Of a stretch of 35,894 nt of DNA, positions 20,090-33,099 are shown piece after piece. Positions within the stretch are counted from its first letter, which is position 1, and every line of letters starts with the position of its first letter. Made by a program: the position numbers and the translations under genes. The notes under the pieces are model-generated. The model saw nothing but the letters and a program-made list of their open reading frames with translations, was not told the DNA's origin and did no database searches. Source of the DNA: a virus; IMG/VR virus record IMGVR_UViG_3300022902_000042, positions 1 to 35,894 of that record; one strand, written 5' to 3'.

Positions 20090-21529
20090 ATGGCACAAGG
20101 TAGAACACCACTCGCGGAGAATCAAAAATCTTTTGGGGCCAACGACCTCGGCTCAGAAGTGCTTTTTCAGCAGCGGCTGAGATATGAGTTTCTTGTATAC
20201 CCTCTTTTCGAGACCACAAAATCTTTTGATTTCTGGAGACAAGACCGCTATTACGGGAGGATATCTACAAGCGGCAACTCGGTACAGGCCCTAGAGTCTA
20301 ACCTTAAGCCCCTAAGATATGCCGGCAGCGAGCCAATTTTTGCAGTCAACTTCGTCGCCGACGCCTGGAGAGACTTTGTGGAGAAGGTCCGGGAACTTAC
20401 CGCTCGCGGGGTTCTATACTCTGACGGCGCATATGCAGACTTGCAAGCAAAAAAGGGGTGGCAATCTCCAACAGAAGAATATCACGAGTATATGACAGAG
20501 ACTATCTATCCAGTTTTTGCAGAATCATTTCTCGGAGATTACGAGAACCGAAAGAGACTCAAGAACCTAAAGGGGTTTCTTGATGTGTTCATGGATTTTT
20601 GCCAGGAAATAATCAGCACTGGCGGACCAGTAACTATGTCTGGCTACTTGGAGAGTGTTCTTTGCTCTGTGATGAACACGGGTTTAGTCATAGAAATAGA
20701 TTCCGCGGATCACGGAGATGATTATGCAAAGGTTCGCGATTTCCTATCAGACAAGAACTTCAACCTAATCACAAACCTTGCCTCTCACTATGGCTTCTCT
20801 CTGGACAAAAATGCACCTTGGCGATTTGTTGCTGATATTTCTTCCGCAGCAATGCAGGAATATATGGTCGGCGTTTATATGTTCTCTCCCTTGATTGACT
20901 TTCGTAACGGAGTGGGGGTATGCCGCAAACCAACATTGAACGAAATAAATGCCCAGCCAGAGCCATACGGCTTTTCCACAATACCAGGATTGCTGTCAAC
21001 TATTCGCCACGCCACCGGATATCCAGGATATTCTGGTGTTCTTGCATCTCGTTCTAATATGGGGGTTTTTGATATTCTCTTCAATACCGCCTTCTTGGAG
21101 ACTTGGAGAAACGACATTGATCTCCTTAAGCTTTATCTAGTAGACATGTACAATCGGTATGTTCTAGACAATCCACACCTTGTCCAGTACCGCCACAATA
21201 CTGACGGATGTGTTGAGAGAAGGAACGAGGTAACGACAAGGACTGTCACAAGCACAGAGGTGTTTGATAATGTCCTTGGCGCTTACCGTGACAAATGGCA
21301 CCTTCGGACATTCTATGTTTTGCGCTTGCTTGAAAGACTATCGGACAAAACAAGGCAGCAAAAGGAAAAAGATATCAGAGACGCATATAACATGTACGAC
21401 GCACTTCCAGGCTCCTCCGACCAAAAGTACTATGCCGCCTTGAGCCACATGCAGTCAGAAGCTTTAGGACCAGTCAACACGGGTAACTTGACGTTTGACA
21501 CTGTTGGTGGTATACTGAGAAAAGACTGA
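20090..21529 (+). CDS. Structural protein of unknown function (baseplate block)
   Basis: 479 aa, CCGGAG upstream of the ATG. It is rich in aromatic residues with mixed helix and strand. Notable segments are RLRYEFLVYPLFETTKSFDF, FLDVFMDFCQEIISTGGPVT, MSGYLESVLCSVMNTGLVIE, YAKVRDFLSDKNFNLITNLA and FSLDKNAPWRFVADISS. Similar 'GFxxDKNxPWRLVAD' segments occur in unassigned structural proteins of marine T4-like phages. It has no signal peptide, transmembrane helix or catalytic motif. It closes the tail/baseplate block, 18 bases before the polymerase gene. A peripheral baseplate or neck role is an inference. Confidence 0.5.
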   Translation: MAQGRTPLAENQKSFGANDLGSEVLFQQRLRYEFLVYPLFETTKSFDFWRQDRYYGRISTSGNSVQALESNLKPLRYAGSEPIFAVNFVADAWRDFVEKVRELTARGVLYSDGAYADLQAKKGWQSPTEEYHEYMTETIYPVFAESFLGDYENRKRLKNLKGFLDVFMDFCQEIISTGGPVTMSGYLESVLCSVMNTGLVIEIDSADHGDDYAKVRDFLSDKNFNLITNLASHYGFSLDKNAPWRFVADISSAAMQEYMVGVYMFSPLIDFRNGVGVCRKPTLNEINAQPEPYGFSTIPGLLSTIRHATGYPGYSGVLASRSNMGVFDILFNTAFLETWRNDIDLLKLYLVDMYNRYVLDNPHLVQYRHNTDGCVERRNEVTTRTVTSTEVFDNVLGAYRDKWHLRTFYVLRLLERLSDKTRQQKEKDIRDAYNMYDALPGSSDQKYYAALSHMQSEALGPVNTGNLTFDTVGGILRKD

Positions 21530-21547: not shown

Positions 21548-22762
21548 TTGTTATTCCAAACCTTAGACGATAAATCTGAATGCGTTGGCATGTATGCCGA
21601 CGGCAAGATCATGTTTGATGCTGGGGATTTCCCCACCGACCTAACCGGATCCTGGAAATATACAGAACATATGAAGGACACTGACGGCGTAGAGTATGCC
21701 AACTTATACGTGCAAAACCAAACAATATCAGAGTGTGCCCCAGAGTATCTCCGCGATGATTGGGCACGAGTCTCTTCTAAGCTCAAAGCATTCTCCCGAG
21801 CCTGCGCATTGTCACGGGTAGATATGACCGGCAATTGCATTTACGATGTTGTCCCGGAGAGGTTCTTGGCAGACATGTGTGAAGTGAAAAATCAGATAAC
21901 ATCTCATGTTCTAAGCAACTACGAGAAACCACAGAGATACCGTTTCCTCCTCAAGACTTGCCAGCTTTTAGAATCCATCTCAAACCGCCGGCTACACATT
22001 GACCGTCGTGAACTAGAGGTGATAAGACAAGCAAACGATGTGCCGGCTACTGCAGCTTTGGCGGCGGCGGCACCGTACATCCGTTATAATCAGTTCGGCA
22101 CTAAGACCGGCAGGCTCACAACCGTGCCAAGCTCGTTTCCGATACTTACGATGAAAAAGGAATACAGAAGAGTTGTCTTGCCCGATAACGATAAGTTTAT
22201 TGAACTAGACTTTAATGGCGCAGAGGCAAGAGTCGTGCTTGGAATACTCGGCAAGACACAGCCAGATTATGATATCCACCAATATCATATGGACTCTGTA
22301 TTCCCCACCGGTACTACCCGATCTCAGGCAAAGACCGCATTTTTTGCATGGCTTTACGGGGCAAAAACAAAAGAAATACAGAAGTACACGCCAGAGCTAG
22401 AGAAAGTCTACGACAAAGAAGCTATTCTGGACAAGTGCTGGGACGGCAAACAAGTAGTCACAGAATACCGGAGAAGAATTTTGTGCCCAGATGCTCATCA
22501 CGCCTTGAACTATGTCGTCCAGGCAACGGCGGCAGAATTAACTATTTTGCAGGCGCTCAAGATAAAGCATTTCCTAGACAGCCGGCAGACAAAGACACAA
22601 ATAGCCTGCCTCATCCATGACGCAGTCGTGCTGGACTTCTCAAACGAGGATGAAAAGTACTTGCCAGAGATTAATAAGCTCATGTCTTCAACTAATTTTG
22701 GCACTTTCAAGATAAATACTAGCGAAGGTCTAAATCTGGGCCAACTACGGGATATAAAATAG
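21548..22762 (+). CDS. polA: Short family A DNA polymerase, no exonuclease domain
   Basis: 404 aa. TTG 21548 has AGAAAGG 9 bases upstream; ATG 21590 is the alternative. Family A motifs are complete: TGRL (187-190), motif A ELDFNGAEARVV with catalytic Asp221, motif B RSQAKTAFFAWLYG with Arg258, Lys262, Phe266 and Tyr270, then YVVQATAAEL (322-331) and motif C LIHDAVV with His357-Asp358. Phe266 matches Phe762 of E. coli Pol I. The Glu that follows the motif C Asp in most relatives is Ala359 here. The first 135 residues are too short and lack DxE/DxxD motifs for a 3'-5' proofreading domain, and the 5' nuclease is a separate gene at 26668. Beside the DnaE polymerase this enzyme may serve gap filling and primer removal. 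Confidence 0.85.
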   Translation: MLFQTLDDKSECVGMYADGKIMFDAGDFPTDLTGSWKYTEHMKDTDGVEYANLYVQNQTISECAPEYLRDDWARVSSKLKAFSRACALSRVDMTGNCIYDVVPERFLADMCEVKNQITSHVLSNYEKPQRYRFLLKTCQLLESISNRRLHIDRRELEVIRQANDVPATAALAAAAPYIRYNQFGTKTGRLTTVPSSFPILTMKKEYRRVVLPDNDKFIELDFNGAEARVVLGILGKTQPDYDIHQYHMDSVFPTGTTRSQAKTAFFAWLYGAKTKEIQKYTPELEKVYDKEAILDKCWDGKQVVTEYRRRILCPDAHHALNYVVQATAAELTILQALKIKHFLDSRQTKTQIACLIHDAVVLDFSNEDEKYLPEINKLMSSTNFGTFKINTSEGLNLGQLRDIK

Positions 22763-23611
22763 ATGGATAAAGTCGTGGGAATTGGAAAGTTTGGGTGTAT
22801 GGTCGCAGAGGAGTTTACGACATACCCAGAATACAGGATATACCAAATTGGACCGGCAAACCCTGGCAAAGCCGACCTTGAAGTACCACTCCAGGCAAGC
22901 ATAGAAGACTATGAGAGCACTGCCAACTCTGATGAGATCGCAATATATTTGCGGAGCATTAAGAAAAAGGACGGTGTTCTAGTAATCTTATCCGGCGGCG
23001 ATCCAATTAATGGAATCGCCCTAAGGGTCTTGGAACAAATAAAAGATTCTAAAGTAACCGTCCTATATGTGGCACCTGACCGGCAAATTATGTCGGATAT
23101 TCAAAAGCGAGATGACAAGATAGTCTTTGGGATTCTACAGGAATATGCCCGCAGCGGAGTTATCGCCGAGGTTTTATTACTTGGACGCCCAGCGGTTGAG
23201 AATTTAGTCGGTGACGTTCCGATAAGTGAATATGAGAAAAGCACAAACCACTTCATCGCATATATCGTAGCGATGGTTAACTATTTTAAGAATACGGAGT
23301 CTGTTTTTGAAAGCCGAGCAGAGAAGGCCAACATCTCCAGAATCGCGACTTACGGGGTTGCCTCCCTGGAACCCTCAGCGGACATAAACTATTTATTTCC
23401 ATTGAGTGATTGGCAGGACGCTCACTTTTATTATGGGATCCCAGAAGGCGAACTCTCAAAAAATGCGAGCCTCATGAGAGAGATTAAGGATCAGGCAAGG
23501 AGGTTTTCAAAAGAGGGGATCAACACGGGCTTTTCAGTGCACTCCACAACTTTTGAAAATATAATGGTATTGTGCACCGCCGGCACAAAGGACGTCCAAG
23601 AAGCACAGTGA
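22763..23611 (+). CDS. Divergent tubulin/FtsZ-like protein (candidate)
   Basis: 282 aa. The ATG follows the polymerase stop with no gap. The order of elements follows the FtsZ/tubulin GTPase fold: strand and glycine loop VVGIGKFGCMVAEEF (4-18), strand RIYQIG (25-30), strand and loop GVLVILSGGDPINGIALRVL (71-90) where FtsZ has its GGGTGTG loop, strand VTVLYVAPD (98-106), helix IVFGILQEYARSGV, strand AEVLLLG followed by AVENLVGD (144-151), and the core-type helix FIAYIVAMVNYFKNT (164-178). A C-terminal half of strands follows (RIATYGVASLEP, FYYGIPEGEL, GFSVHSTTFENIMVLCTAGT). The usual GGGTGSG is weakened to SGGDPING. Filament formation for positioning of DNA or capsids, as for PhuZ of jumbo phages, is speculative. 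A Rossmann-type regulator is the alternative. Confidence 0.45.
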   Translation: MDKVVGIGKFGCMVAEEFTTYPEYRIYQIGPANPGKADLEVPLQASIEDYESTANSDEIAIYLRSIKKKDGVLVILSGGDPINGIALRVLEQIKDSKVTVLYVAPDRQIMSDIQKRDDKIVFGILQEYARSGVIAEVLLLGRPAVENLVGDVPISEYEKSTNHFIAYIVAMVNYFKNTESVFESRAEKANISRIATYGVASLEPSADINYLFPLSDWQDAHFYYGIPEGELSKNASLMREIKDQARRFSKEGINTGFSVHSTTFENIMVLCTAGTKDVQEAQ

Positions 23612-23680: not shown

Positions 23681-23686
23681 GTCTTG

Positions 23687-24175
23687 ATGAATAACCACAA
23701 CCCCCGACGCGGCGTCCTCCTAGCCTCCTTTCTGGCTTCTGCCACGGAAGACGCCGTCATGGTAGAGGTACAGGCCATCGCCGATACCATGGACCTGACG
23801 AACAATCTGATATTTTTGTTGCAGGACAAAGAGAACCCAGAAAATAAGATACTAACTTATAACGCTGCCGTTGAAAGAGGGCAGGCGTATAACCCACGCT
23901 TGTTTACTATGCGAGTCCATCGTAAAAAGCAGACAGCAACTCTTTATACGATCAATGCACTAAACCTTGCTGTCGCCCAAGACCACGAGGGACAGACGGG
24001 GAAGCACCTAAAGCTAGATTGGGAAAAGTATGCCAATTGTATCCTGCTAGCAACCTCCGGGAAACTTAATGTTTGCCCGGTAGAGGTAACGAAGGTCTTT
24101 AAGATAGAGCCCGAAGAACCGGTGCCCGCCACCGAAGACCCAGCGCCCGTCGCTGAAGACAAAAAAGAAGAGTAG
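23687..24175 (+). CDS. Conserved hypothetical protein with acidic tail
   Basis: 162 aa from ATG 23687; TTG 23684 in the same frame adds one residue. GAGGTAAGTGA lies upstream. The folded part (residues 5-135) is mixed alpha/beta: RRGVLLASFLASATEDAVMV, NNLIFLLQDKENPENKILTY, RLFTMRVHRKKQTATLYTIN, LKLDWEKYANCILLA, LNVCPVEVTKVFKI. The last 25 residues are Pro/Glu/Asp-rich and disordered (EEPVPATEDPAPVAEDKKEE). Acidic tails of this sort are common on phage DNA-metabolism proteins that contact partners. It stands directly before SSB. I recall similar proteins in marine T4-like phages without known function. Confidence 0.6.
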   Translation: MNNHNPRRGVLLASFLASATEDAVMVEVQAIADTMDLTNNLIFLLQDKENPENKILTYNAAVERGQAYNPRLFTMRVHRKKQTATLYTINALNLAVAQDHEGQTGKHLKLDWEKYANCILLATSGKLNVCPVEVTKVFKIEPEEPVPATEDPAPVAEDKKEE

Positions 24176-24313: not shown

Positions 24314-25096
24314 ATGGGTATTGATCTTACCAAGATGCGGGAGAAGCACGCTGCTTTAACCAACAAGGGCTCTAGTAGTTCCGAGGACTATTGGAAACCG
24401 GATGAGGGAACTCATCAAATTCGTTTAGTGTGTCCACCGAGTGGAGATCCATTCTTTGAGGCATACTATCACTACGGCATGGGAGCCGAGGGCAAGACTA
24501 CTGTTTTGAGTCCTCGTACTAGCGGTCAACCTGACCCAATCGCAGAATGGGGTACCCGCCTCTGGAATGAAGGCACCGAGGCATCGAAGGAAGCTGCCAA
24601 GCGCTTTTGGCCCAAGATGCGTGTCTTCGCTCCGATCGTCGTTCGCGGCGAAGAAAATAAGGGCGTTCGCTGGTGGGGCTTCTCACGCACCACCTATCAG
24701 GCACTACTCGATGTAGTCCTGGACCCAGAATATGGGGATGTCACTGATGTTGACGCCGGAACAGATATCCGTATTGACTACGGAAAGAAGTCCGGTCAAC
24801 AGTTCCCAACTACTGATGTACGCCCAATGCGCCGCACCAGTAAGCTAGCGGAAACTGATGCCGAGGTTACCACTATGCTCGCGAGCATCAAGACTGCCGA
24901 TGAGCTTTTTGAGGTAGCAACTTATGAGGCATGCGAAAAGGTATTGAATGATACTTTAGGGGAGTCTGATACCGAATCCGGCGAAGAGACTACTCGGTAT
25001 GCTAGCACTGATGGCAATACCGGCAATAAGGGAGGCACCAACAGCCTCGAAACCGTGTCGGATATTGAGACAGCGTTTGATGATCTACTGGCGTAG
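24314..25096 (+). CDS. Single-stranded DNA-binding protein (gp32-like)
   Basis: 260 aa, AAAGGAGAAAT ribosome-binding site. Features are a basic N-terminal arm (LTKMREKHAAL), a core with YWKPDEGTHQIRLVCPPSGD, FFEAYYHYGM, WPKMRVFAPIVVRG, VRWWGFSRTTYQALLDVVLD, DIRIDYGKKS, and a Ser/Thr/Asp/Glu-rich C-terminal tail ending ETAFDDLLA. Basic arm, OB core and acidic tail are the gp32 layout; the DDLL end is where replication partners bind. Only two cysteines are present, far apart (about 40 and 208), so the zinc site of T4 gp32 is absent. It is expressed from its own extended -10 promoter and is followed by uvsX, making a recombination pair. Confidence 0.85.
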   Translation: MGIDLTKMREKHAALTNKGSSSSEDYWKPDEGTHQIRLVCPPSGDPFFEAYYHYGMGAEGKTTVLSPRTSGQPDPIAEWGTRLWNEGTEASKEAAKRFWPKMRVFAPIVVRGEENKGVRWWGFSRTTYQALLDVVLDPEYGDVTDVDAGTDIRIDYGKKSGQQFPTTDVRPMRRTSKLAETDAEVTTMLASIKTADELFEVATYEACEKVLNDTLGESDTESGEETTRYASTDGNTGNKGGTNSLETVSDIETAFDDLLA

Positions 25097-25156: not shown

Positions 25157-26230
25157 ATGACTAAGAAAGCTACAAGCAGTCTTGTAAGCGATTTGCGCAG
25201 CGAATTAAACAAGGCAGCCAAAGAAAATATAGCTTACGATCTTCACGGAGATAATCCGACGGATGTGAAGACCTGGATATCAACCGGATCAACACTTCTA
25301 GATTACATCGTTTCTAACAGACGAAATGGTGGAATCCCGGTAGGGAAGCTGACAACCATCGCCGGTGAGTCGGCGAGCGGTAAAAGCCTCGTCGTTACTC
25401 AAATATTGGCGAACACTCAGAAGATGGGAGGGCTTGCGGTATATATTGATACTGAAAACGCCGCAAGCCCGGACTTCATGGAGCAGCTTGGGCTGGACAC
25501 GAAGAATAACTTCATGTACGTTCAGCCGGGAACGATTGAGGAAGTGTTTGAGACAATTGAGCGACTAATCTGCCTCATCCGGGAGAAAGCTCCGGACCGC
25601 CTTGTCTGCATCGCTTGGGATAGCGTTGCCGGCACTCCTGTCCGGGCAGAAGTTGAGGGCGATTATGATCCTAACAGCCGAATCGGCTTGACGGCGAAAG
25701 CTCTTGCAAAGGGAATGAGAAAAGTAACTGAGACCCTCGGCAAAGCACAGATTGCTCTGGTCTTCACGAACCAACTCAAGACCAACATCGGGGTTATGTT
25801 CGGGGATAATCGTGTTGAGCCTGGCGGCAAAGCACTCCCCTACCACGCCTCTACTCGCATTTGGATGACCCAGCATAAGGGAAAAGCCAACGGCGAGATC
25901 CGAAACGAGAAGAAGCAAGTCATCGGGTTTAGGACATCTGCCAAGACAATCAAGTCTAGATTTGGACCATCCCCAAGAACCTGCGAGTTTGATATCTTGT
26001 TTGATTTGGCGAATGACCGGGTTGGGATTCGCGATGAATCCTCTTGGTTGCAAGCCATTGCCGGCACCCCTGCCTGCTTACGTTCCGGATCTTGGTACAC
26101 TATTGAAGTCAAGGGCGAAGAAAAGAAATTCCAAAGCAAAGAATTTGAGATGCTCTTGGAAGATAAACCTTTTCGGAAAAGAGTTCTTGACATTCTAGAA
26201 GAAGAGTGTAGAATAGGGAAGAAGCAATAG
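25157..26230 (+). CDS. uvsX: RecA/UvsX-like recombinase
   Basis: 357 aa. GGAG lies 5 bases before the ATG. Walker A GESASGKS is at residues 70-77, with the preceding GGIPVGKLTTIA as in RecA/UvsX. The Walker B strand is RLVCIAWDSVAGTP. After it come the mobile-loop region (EGDYDPNSRIGLTAKALAKG) and LVFTNQLKTNIGVMFGDNRV, corresponding to RecA motif VFINQ and loop 2, then PGGKALPYHAS. The length is near UvsX (391) and RecA (about 350). It assembles on single-stranded DNA with the gp32-like SSB and drives strand exchange and recombination-dependent replication. No UvsY-like loader gene is evident nearby. Confidence 0.93.
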   Translation: MTKKATSSLVSDLRSELNKAAKENIAYDLHGDNPTDVKTWISTGSTLLDYIVSNRRNGGIPVGKLTTIAGESASGKSLVVTQILANTQKMGGLAVYIDTENAASPDFMEQLGLDTKNNFMYVQPGTIEEVFETIERLICLIREKAPDRLVCIAWDSVAGTPVRAEVEGDYDPNSRIGLTAKALAKGMRKVTETLGKAQIALVFTNQLKTNIGVMFGDNRVEPGGKALPYHASTRIWMTQHKGKANGEIRNEKKQVIGFRTSAKTIKSRFGPSPRTCEFDILFDLANDRVGIRDESSWLQAIAGTPACLRSGSWYTIEVKGEEKKFQSKEFEMLLEDKPFRKRVLDILEEECRIGKKQ

Positions 26231-26243
26231 GGATGTCCGGATT

Positions 26244-26681
26244 ATGGAGAGCGACCCGAGCCGGAAGATAAACAAATATCTACGTTTAGCGCTGCGGCGC
26301 ATTGATGGTGAAGAATATAGTAACGCCATGCAGTATAGGCACTCTGCCGTAATCGTAAAAGGCGGCAGGGTGCTGTCTGTGGGTCGGAACCGTAACAAGA
26401 CTCATCCAGACTCAGTAAGTCTAAACACTAACGGCGAACTCTATTGCCGGTCTATCCATGCGGAGATGGATGCCATTTCTCGGGTAAAAAACAAAGATAT
26501 CCTTCGTGGTGCCATAATCTATGTTGCACGCAAAAGCAGAACGGGCTTACCCGGAATGTCATGTCCTTGCAAAATGTGCCAGGGACAAATTAATAAATAC
26601 GGCCTCAAACGAGCGGTCTTTACGACTGACTACGGGACAGGTACACTAGAGTTTACAGGAGAACAGGATGACCCCAACTAA
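26244..26681 (+). CDS. dCMP/cytidine deaminase-family enzyme
   Basis: 145 aa. The zinc-dependent deaminase motifs are present: HAEMDAI (His ligand and catalytic Glu, about residues 72-78) and PCKMC (two Cys ligands, about 108-112). The N-terminal helix SRKINKYLRLALRRI and strand HSAVIVKGGRVLSVGRNRNK complete the fold. T4 dCMP deaminase is longer (193 aa); this form lacks the extra allosteric segment. With the RNR gene downstream, conversion of dCMP to dUMP for dTTP synthesis is the likely role, although substrate cannot be fixed from motifs alone. The gene overlaps the next start by 14 bases. Confidence 0.78.
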   Translation: MESDPSRKINKYLRLALRRIDGEEYSNAMQYRHSAVIVKGGRVLSVGRNRNKTHPDSVSLNTNGELYCRSIHAEMDAISRVKNKDILRGAIIYVARKSRTGLPGMSCPCKMCQGQINKYGLKRAVFTTDYGTGTLEFTGEQDDPN

Positions 26682-31617: not shown

Positions 31618-32129
31618 AAACACTACTTCAGGGTTTCAAGGGCTTCCTCGCCGAGGGACAGAAGTCAGATTATGTCAAGGCTGACACAATGGACCTATAC
31701 CACTACGCCGCAGCAGACAGCGATAGCATAGTAGTGGACCCAAAGTATTTTTCAGACCGTGCTAAGAGAAGCTCTTTTTCTAGAAACGAGTATGCGATCA
31801 GCACTGTTCCTAGAACTTTTTGGTACGTAGACCCAAAGCAGAGAGAACGCTTTGTCGCAACCGGACGCAAGCTATATGTGGCAAAGATATCTGCAAATAG
31901 TATCTACGACTTTCGTAACGATCCACAGGGATACCGGGAAAAGCACCGGCACGAAACTTATGGCTTAAGAAAAGGGATGGAATGGAATACAATGCTAGAA
32001 GATATCAGTGAAAGTTATGAAGGCATTTATTATAGTTTAGGATTTGATGTAGTTTCCTTGTTCGTGCCGTTTACTGCGGCACGAGTACCAGAAGAAGAAC
32101 GTGCCAATATTGAAGGCGGAAAGAAATAA
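31614..32129 (+). CDS. Putative packaged/injected head protein
   Basis: 171 aa from ATG 31614, which overlaps the co-chaperonin stop; TTG 31605 is less likely. MKTLLQGFKGFLAE (1-14) followed by Gly resembles the capsid-targeting sequences of T4 internal proteins (MKTYQEFIAE, cut before Ala) and fits the prohead protease rule (L/I)xE before G/A/S. The rest has LYHYAAADSDSIVVDPKYF, FSRNEYAISTVPRTFWYVDP, KLYVAKISANSIYDFRNDPQ, GIYYSLGFDVVSLFVPF. This 'LYHYS...DP..F' pattern, with PRTFWY, recurs in unassigned marine phage proteins and could be an ADP-ribosyltransferase-like fold, but I cannot identify a catalytic triad. Packaging is inferred from the N-terminus. Confidence 0.55.
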   Translation: MKTLLQGFKGFLAEGQKSDYVKADTMDLYHYAAADSDSIVVDPKYFSDRAKRSSFSRNEYAISTVPRTFWYVDPKQRERFVATGRKLYVAKISANSIYDFRNDPQGYREKHRHETYGLRKGMEWNTMLEDISESYEGIYYSLGFDVVSLFVPFTAARVPEEERANIEGGKK

Positions 32130-32133
32130 AATA

Positions 32134-33099
32134 ATGTTTATTCGTACAGCAGAATGTATCACCCCACACCACCCAGACAAGATTTGCGATAGGATATCTG
32201 ACGCGATTCTGGACGCCTGCCTAGAGCAGGATGCAAACTCCAGAGTAGCAGTTGAGACTATGGGCGGTCATCGCCGCATTGCGATTATGGGAGAAATCTC
32301 CACAAATGCCGAAGTAGATATCGCTGCGATTGTTCGCTCGGTCTATGACGACGTTGACGAGGTTGATGTACATGTCGTAAAGCAGAGTAACTTCATCGCT
32401 CAAGGTGTAGATACCGGCGGTGCAGGCGATCAAGGAATCATGGTCGGCTATGCCTGCGCAGAGAACGACTCTCTAATTCCTCAAGAGTTGTTCCTTGCTC
32501 GCGATCTTTGCAAGCGGCTGCACAAAAGATTCCCCTTTGACGGGAAGACCCAGGTGACCCTTGATCGTGGAGAGATCTGTGCTGTGGTGGCGAGCTTTCA
32601 GAACGCCCCTGCCGCGGAACTCCGGGGAATGATCGGGGAATGGCTTACTGAACTTGGAGAAGATGCTTATGCAGCGGACCTTGCCATCCATGCCAACCCC
32701 GCCGGAGATTGGTCTATCGGCGGATTTGATGCCGATACCGGATTAACTGGCAGGAAGCTTGTCGTAGACAACTACGGCCCTCGCGTTCCAATCGGTGGTG
32801 GCGCATTTAGCGGCAAGGATCCGAGCAAGGTAGACCGTTCCGCAGCATATATGGCACGTAGGGTAGCTGTGGATTATTTGAACAAACGTAACGCCCAAGA
32901 GGTATATGTATATTTGGCATATGCCATCGGACACCCGGCACCAGTTCAGGCAACAGTCATTATTGATGGCAACGCTGAAGAAGTGCAGGGGTATGACCTT
33001 TCCCCTACTGGGATCATAGACTTGTTAGAACTTAAGAGCCCCCGCTATAAGCAAACCGCTGAGTGGGGACATTTTGGCAACGGCTTCAATTGGGGCTAG
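32134..33099 (+). CDS. metK: S-adenosylmethionine synthetase
   Basis: 321 aa from ATG 32134; the frame extends to 32101 but overlaps the upstream gene. Bacterial MetK motifs are intact: HPDKICDRISDAILDACL (13-30, ATP/Mg site), GAGDQGIMVGYA, FDADTGLTGRKLVVDNYG, the P-loop-like GGGAFSGKDPSKVDRSAAYM, and GHFGNGF near the end. Host enzymes have about 384 aa; the shortening is between the first two domains and at the C-terminus. The reaction is methionine plus ATP to SAM. No DNA methyltransferase is in the window, so the user of the extra SAM is unknown: modification of phage DNA or polyamine synthesis are options. Confidence 0.92.
   Translation: MFIRTAECITPHHPDKICDRISDAILDACLEQDANSRVAVETMGGHRRIAIMGEISTNAEVDIAAIVRSVYDDVDEVDVHVVKQSNFIAQGVDTGGAGDQGIMVGYACAENDSLIPQELFLARDLCKRLHKRFPFDGKTQVTLDRGEICAVVASFQNAPAAELRGMIGEWLTELGEDAYAADLAIHANPAGDWSIGGFDADTGLTGRKLVVDNYGPRVPIGGGAFSGKDPSKVDRSAAYMARRVAVDYLNKRNAQEVYVYLAYAIGHPAPVQATVIIDGNAEEVQGYDLSPTGIIDLLELKSPRYKQTAEWGHFGNGFNWG

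Follow-up and report, generated by a model that had tools for sequence, protein, structure and literature searches.

The question raised by this locus is whether a protein of 282 amino acids, encoded within 35,894 nucleotides of viral DNA (the window, that is, the whole stretch analysed), belongs to the tubulin/FtsZ superfamily and, if so, what such a protein does in a phage. A sequence-only reading had proposed a cryptic member of this family in a T4-like phage, possibly a filament protein organising DNA or capsids. The open reading frame is confirmed on the plus strand, starting with ATG, and on the antisense strand there is no open frame, with stops occurring throughout. The median dN/dS over 32 pairs of close homologues is 0.07, and the gene is under strong purifying selection. 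We refer to its product as TUB2, whose features are the following.

22763..23611, plus strand: TUB2, divergent tubulin/FtsZ-superfamily protein of 282 residues (open reading frame, syntenic homologues, AlphaFold2, Foldseek)
22775..22807, plus strand: T1 (glycine) loop, residues 5-15, VGIGKFGCMVA (conservation in 79 non-redundant homologues)
22988..23020, plus strand: equivalent of the T4 loop, residues 76-86, LSGGDPINGIA, a degenerate tubulin signature (conservation)
23177..23191, plus strand: equivalent of T6, residues 139-143, LLGRP, with Arg in place of the guanine-contact Asn (clade comparison, alignment to TUB1 N204)
23222..23290, plus strand: core helix H7, residues 154-176 (helix in the AlphaFold2 model; segment matching TUB1 by sequence)
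23291..23341, plus strand: equivalent of T7/H8, residues 177-193, without the catalytic aspartates and helix H8 (conservation, DSSP)
23342..23608, plus strand: C-terminal domain in reduced form, with strands S7-S10 and H10 but lacking H9, and a conserved terminal Gln279 (DSSP order E-E-H-H-E-E; Q279 96%)

Direct sequence searches with TUB2 returned nothing acceptable in Pfam, PHROGs, NCBIfam, the PDB (phmmer and profile) or plasmids, tblastn with three different members as query detected no relative among 50,697 phage records, and two scans of genome contigs gave no acceptable match. The weak Pfam matches (TraF, DUF4147 and others, E∼0.1) were not the same between members and were rejected as chance. 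Since a viral-contig scan with the single sequence yielded no relative, homologues were reached through the neighbouring uvsX gene, resulting in 80 related IMG/VR loci, 39 of which (40 counting the window) have a TUB2 homologue at the same place. The 36 distinct sequences, window included, formed the alignment used for AlphaFold2 and for a viral-contig scan, which confirmed at least 586 relatives in IMG/VR. Among these 36 members none has a Pfam tubulin domain over the cut-off, which does not exclude membership of the superfamily, as the fold does not require detection by a sequence model; the TubZ-like C-terminal domain (PF22453) is also absent from all 36.

The AlphaFold2 model obtained from this alignment has a mean pLDDT of 91.7 and a pTM of 0.90, and its comparison with the PDB using Foldseek gave 428 matches at E≤0.001. 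Apart from one TubZ, the best 50 of these 428 all belong to FtsZ (best E 7.3e-13), and within them the TMq is mostly 0.60–0.72 and essentially the whole chain is aligned, comprising both domains. Against predicted viral proteins, three of the best four matches bear the annotations FtsZ, cell division protein and tubulin, respectively. The model and the Foldseek alignments place an N-terminal GTPase domain, a central H7 and a C-terminal domain in one chain, and the order of elements (S1-T1-H1, S2, H2, S3/S4-T4-H4, S5-H5, S6-H6, a long H7, then strands with H10) is that of the tubulin/FtsZ superfamily. The proposed succession of glycine loop (GIGKFGC, residues 6-12), SGG loop (77-79), strand and helix is indeed the one observed. 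The tubulin fold itself also withstood the structure prediction that could have refuted it, as no other Rossmann family occurs among the best 50 of the 428 matches and the C-terminal domain is present.

A link at the level of sequence came from a second gene, found over the PF00091 cut-off in 4 of 9 long relatives and in six more records when its protein was used as query.

L160-L173; L186:5001-6134: TUB1, canonical TubZ-like tubulin of ∼378 aa, upstream of the terminase and portal genes

TUB1 passes the cut-offs of both PF00091 and PF22453 (TubZ-like_C), matches FtsZ at 5e-9 in a phmmer search of the PDB, and carries the motifs GAGQGGGR (T1), GAGKDQ (T3), GVSGGSGGGT (T4), VDN (T6), INN (H7) and FDATDYDSVM (T7/H8). 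When the TUB2 profile was run over whole genomes it reached TUB1 at E 6e-7 to 3e-4 through the T6-H7 segment, being this the sole match in several genomes, and in two further genomes TUB1 was matched at 3e-6 and 4e-6. Using hhalign the two families align with a probability of 93–94 and a score of 55.6; the highest score among 60 column shuffles was 26.4, and the reversed control gave 18.7. No signal was obtained between TUB2 and single sequences of E. coli FtsZ or phiKZ PhuZ (PhuZ probability 0.6), so that the sequence link of TUB2 rests on TUB1; of the suggested comparison with FtsZ, TubZ and PhuZ, the structural part held, with matches to FtsZ and TubZ, and the hhalign part, on FtsZ and PhuZ, gave no signal. 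The profile and hhalign matches to TUB1 show that the homology of TUB2 to a recognised tubulin is found in its sequence and not only in its fold, and they form a line of evidence independent of structure prediction. The AlphaFold2 model of TUB1 is poor (pLDDT 55.6, from 11 similar sequences only) and, while it still matched TubZ/FtsZ, it was left out of residue claims. On the predicted model together with the match to TUB1, we regard it as near certain that TUB2 has the tubulin/FtsZ fold; its function is only inferred.

Analysis of 79 non-redundant TUB2 sequences evidences which of the nucleotide loops have been maintained. In the T1 loop G6 and G8 are invariant (100%), and G11 and C12 are kept at 96% and 93%. 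In T4 the first and last glycines (G78 and G84) are conserved at 94% each, the central glycine of GGGTGTG is Ile/Val in 94%, and the tubulin signature [SAG]GGTG[SAT]G is not met. The expectation of conserved residues in a Gly77-Asn83 region is therefore borne out for the glycines but not for its end points: the loop is Ser77-Gly78-Gly79, the numbering having been off by one, and at residue 83, Asn in the window protein, 77% of the family have Ser. The T3 G-loop insert is missing, none of the 79 sequences, also when split by clade, reveals a conserved T7 Asp, and DSSP assigns to the model neither a helix between H7 and the next strand (H8) nor the helix after S7 (H9). At the C-terminal end, Q279 is kept at 96%. 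TUB2 has lost its catalytic loops, as well as helices H8 and H9. The sequence-only reading was right in describing a degraded GGGTGTG that standard searches overlook; the loss extends further, to T3, T7, H8 and H9 and, in the clade of the window, to the guanine-contact Asn.

The genes that surround TUB2 in the window are the following.

20090-21529: 479-aa core gene, located upstream of polA at the inspected loci, with no family match
21548..22762, plus strand: short family-A DNA polymerase (polA), 404 aa (PF00476, E 5e-14)
23684..24175, plus strand: acidic open reading frame of 163 aa between TUB2 and SSB (synteny; in window-clade loci, not in sister-clade loci)
24314..25096, plus strand: gp32-like single-strand DNA-binding protein, SSB (PF08804 over cut-off; phrog_1192)
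25157..26230, plus strand: UvsX/RecA recombinase (PF00154, E 3e-43; phrog_97)
26244-26681: dCMP deaminase, between uvsX and the exonuclease, in the window and some relatives only
32101-33099: S-adenosylmethionine synthetase, metK (three Pfam domains over cut-off)

Genes for a T4-type capsid protein and for the tail sheath, the baseplate hub and the tape measure lie upstream in the window, and downstream of TUB2 the order is the 163-aa frame, SSB, UvsX, dCMP deaminase, 5'-3' exonuclease, DnaB-type helicase, ribonucleotide reductase and metK, the last being an auxiliary metabolic gene in a phage. The polA stop codon, TAG, ends on the base directly before the TUB2 ATG, in agreement with the described position beside a polymerase; SSB, given as the other neighbour, is one gene further, with the 163-aa frame in between. 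The order polA-TUB2-SSB-uvsX is observed in 25 of 25 loci inspected, in both clades and down to ∼30% identity. The distance from the polA stop to the TUB2 start falls between −13 and +49 nt in 59 of 92 homologous pairs, and most of the remaining pairs have an insert of ∼300 nt between the two genes; TUB2 is thus often arranged for translational coupling to polA. The ∼300-nt insert marks one subgroup (L107, L110, L120, L131, L154 and other sister-clade loci). The median identity to the window is ∼48% for TUB2, ∼48% for PolA, 76% for SSB and 88% for UvsX, and the distances of TUB2 correlate with those of PolA at 0.88 and with those of SSB at 0.11; linkage alone may explain the correlated divergence of PolA and TUB2. 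The window polA is unusually divergent (48% median identity where UvsX has 88%) and its motif C is HDA, the usual one being HDE, and the 479-aa gene diverges fastest of the set (36% median identity).

By the T4-type gp23 capsid protein, and without a tree, the nearest phages are Rhodothermus phage RM378, Flavobacterium phage immuto, Microcystis phage Mel-JY01 and an uncultured 484-kb phage record. From this proximity to RM378, immuto and Mel-JY01 the window is taken to derive from a Far-T4-like phage, a group described previously (PMC4360716) whose proposed hosts are Bacteroidetes or Flavobacteriales (PMC7198788, PMC13037479); 'T4-like' was therefore correct in a broad sense. The TUB2 profile found no member in the cultured immuto, Mel-JY01 and RM378 or in the uncultured record LR756508. 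In a large clade of marine phages of the Far-T4-like type, which is uncultivated, TUB2 belongs to the core of the replication module.

The distribution of TUB1 separates the two clades. All ten window-clade contigs that extend far enough have TUB1, and in locus L186 three small genes lie between it and the downstream terminase and portal genes. In the sister clade it is absent at the syntenic spot in four of four genomes (95–184 kb), in which the flanking genes are there. As the 35.9-kb window stops short of this place, the presence of TUB1 in the window's own genome is only inferred. Relatives of TUB1 also occur in other marine virus contigs (L255-L264) at 65–69% identity (91% in L259), with mostly different neighbours: a uvsX-like gene (L264), a terminase nearby (L258, L262), or neither.

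The clades differ as well in the nucleotide pocket of TUB2. In the tubulin/FtsZ family the guanine base is contacted by the T6 Asn and by the H7 Asn/Asp. Residues 142, 162 and 170 of TUB2 align to the invariant N204, N224 and H232 of TUB1. In 48 sister-clade sequences these residues are Asn142 in 93%, Asn162 in 95% and His170 in 97%; in 31 window-clade sequences Asn142 is found in 0% and Asn162 in 12%, and position 170 is Ala in 90%. The window protein itself retains N162. Erosion of the TUB2 pocket, with the T6 Asn lost and the H7 Asn mostly lost, thus occurs only in the TUB1-bearing clade, a contrast of one clade against another that possibly amounts to a single evolutionary event. Near the T7 position, residue 190 is Glu/Asp in 74% of sister-clade TUB2, and this acidic residue might partly replace the lost T7 Asp.

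We propose that TUB2 is a pseudo-tubulin that serves, where the phage replicates its DNA, as a structural subunit without GTP hydrolysis (a cap, seed or anchor), a function inferred without biochemistry or microscopy and to which we give an even chance of being right. Of its two parts, the lack of an intrinsic GTPase is probable, although inferred without biochemistry, and the structural role at the replication site remains a tentative suggestion, inferred without microscopy. According to this proposal TUB2 would not hydrolyse GTP nor form dynamic filaments on its own, and would offer one tubulin-type face with which to cap, seed or anchor a filament where phage DNA is synthesised. With a single such face and no T7, it would be unable to trigger hydrolysis in an adjacent subunit and ought to be static; a role as cap, seed or anchor at replication sites is the most likely one in view of a static, one-faced protein and of the position beside polA. 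A caveat to this role is that in phages the genes for replication are also found grouped with genes that serve other purposes. The filament partner would be TUB1 where present and, in the clade without TUB1, TUB2 itself or the host FtsZ. An extension of this inference, which we consider improbable, is a two-tubulin system in which a TUB1 filament, encoded beside the packaging genes, and a replisome-coupled TUB2 cap or anchor would link replication to packaging, with no detected nucleus shell.

Overlapping with the pseudo-tubulin explanation is the possibility of a two-component filament, in which TUB2 would serve TUB1 as a dedicated heteropolymer partner or end-cap. The co-occurrence of both genes in all ten adequate window-clade contigs and the wear of pocket residues only where TUB1 exists speak for it, but the sister clade has TUB2 without TUB1, other contigs (which may be fragments) have TUB1 without detectable TUB2, and TUB1 is ∼92% identical between phages against ∼48% for TUB2. 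We consider this reading unlikely. In its strict form, that of an obligate pair, it is rejected, since the occurrence of TUB2 without TUB1 in the sister clade means that TUB1 cannot be an obligate partner.

Active filament formation by TUB2, driven by GTP as in PhuZ or TubZ and serving to position or move phage DNA or capsids, would agree with a fold of the same type, with the conserved T1 loop and with the retention of the T6 and H7 Asn in sister-clade TUB2. Against this, the T7 Asp, H8 and H9 are missing and the tubulin signature is gone, and the guanine-contact Asn has been lost in the window clade. Also, no chimallin match to the phiKZ gp54 query was found in eight relatives, a weak negative without a positive control; the idea of a nucleus-forming phage has no support from these eight genomes. 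Considering that the losses extend beyond the GGGTGTG loop and that close relatives carry a canonical tubulin gene, a dynamic PhuZ-like filament is less likely than had been supposed, and we judge it improbable.

Alternatively, TUB2 could be an inhibitor of host division, one face of which binds the host FtsZ so that, early in infection, the Z-ring is capped or poisoned. FtsZ filaments would be capped by a one-faced FtsZ-like protein, TUB2 evolves faster than UvsX or SSB, and phage proteins that bind FtsZ are known, for example T7 Gp0.4 (PMC13423816). Unlike typical accessory genes of host takeover, however, TUB2 belongs to the core genes and keeps its place between polA and SSB at every inspected locus, and by sequence it resembles the phage TUB1, with no hhalign signal to E. 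coli FtsZ; this explanation has little probability.

A non-cytoskeletal polymerase accessory, such as a processivity or loading factor reusing the tubulin fold, would fit a gene that adjoins and often overlaps polA and that diverges along with PolA. Yet we know of no tubulin-fold protein that acts as a polymerase accessory and, to our knowledge, this fold otherwise almost always serves filament contacts, which makes the proposal very doubtful. Finally, a different Rossmann-like protein with no relation to tubulin, conceivable only in that direct sequence searches place TUB2 in no known family, is practically ruled out by the fold search and by the match of the TUB2 profile to TUB1.

In the literature on phage tubulins (PhuZ, TubZ) no description was found of a two-tubulin system or of an eroded second tubulin, and no mention of tubulin/FtsZ was found in that on Far-T4 phages, preprints and most subscription papers being in both cases outside the search. 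As far as found, TUB2 is new as an eroded, replication-coupled phage tubulin that in one clade is paired with a canonical one, priority not being proven. The phage tubulins described in the literature covered are single active GTPases, namely PhuZ in nucleus-forming jumbo phages and TubZ in plasmid-like phages and plasmids; here, abundant uncultivated marine T4-like phages have a tubulin-fold gene in the core replication module, and one clade has two tubulins with complementary wear. If TUB2 is a working pseudo-tubulin, it would illustrate how a cytomotive protein turns into a cap or scaffold, and would suggest that phages organise their replication by cytoskeletal means far more often than PhuZ implies. 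The family is worth adding to annotation libraries, as it is invisible to the current ones.

Among the known systems, PhuZ of the phiKZ-like nucleus-forming phages shares with TUB2 the phage-encoded tubulin superfamily and a small size class (327 aa in phiKZ). It forms dynamic filaments in chimallin phages (PMC4244570); TUB2 differs from it in having no T7/H8, and the hhalign match between them is not significant. TubZ of Bacillus plasmids and phages resembles TUB2 in fold (match to 2xka, TMq 0.69), whereas TUB2 has no TubZ-like_C match and is ∼100–140 aa shorter. FtsZ is the best fold match (E 7e-13) and has in common the T1 loop and the order of domains, but identity is only 10–15% and TUB2 is devoid of the T3 G-loop, GGGTGTG, the T7 NxDxxD motif, H8/H9 and the C-terminal peptide. 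TUB1, present in the genomes of the window's closest relatives, belongs to the same superfamily, with homology to TUB2 strongest in T6-H7. In contrast to TUB2 it retains the whole set of T1-T4 and T6, the Asn of H7 and, in T7, the motif FDxxDYD, and its gene lies upstream of terminase and portal, whereas that of TUB2 is part of the replication module.
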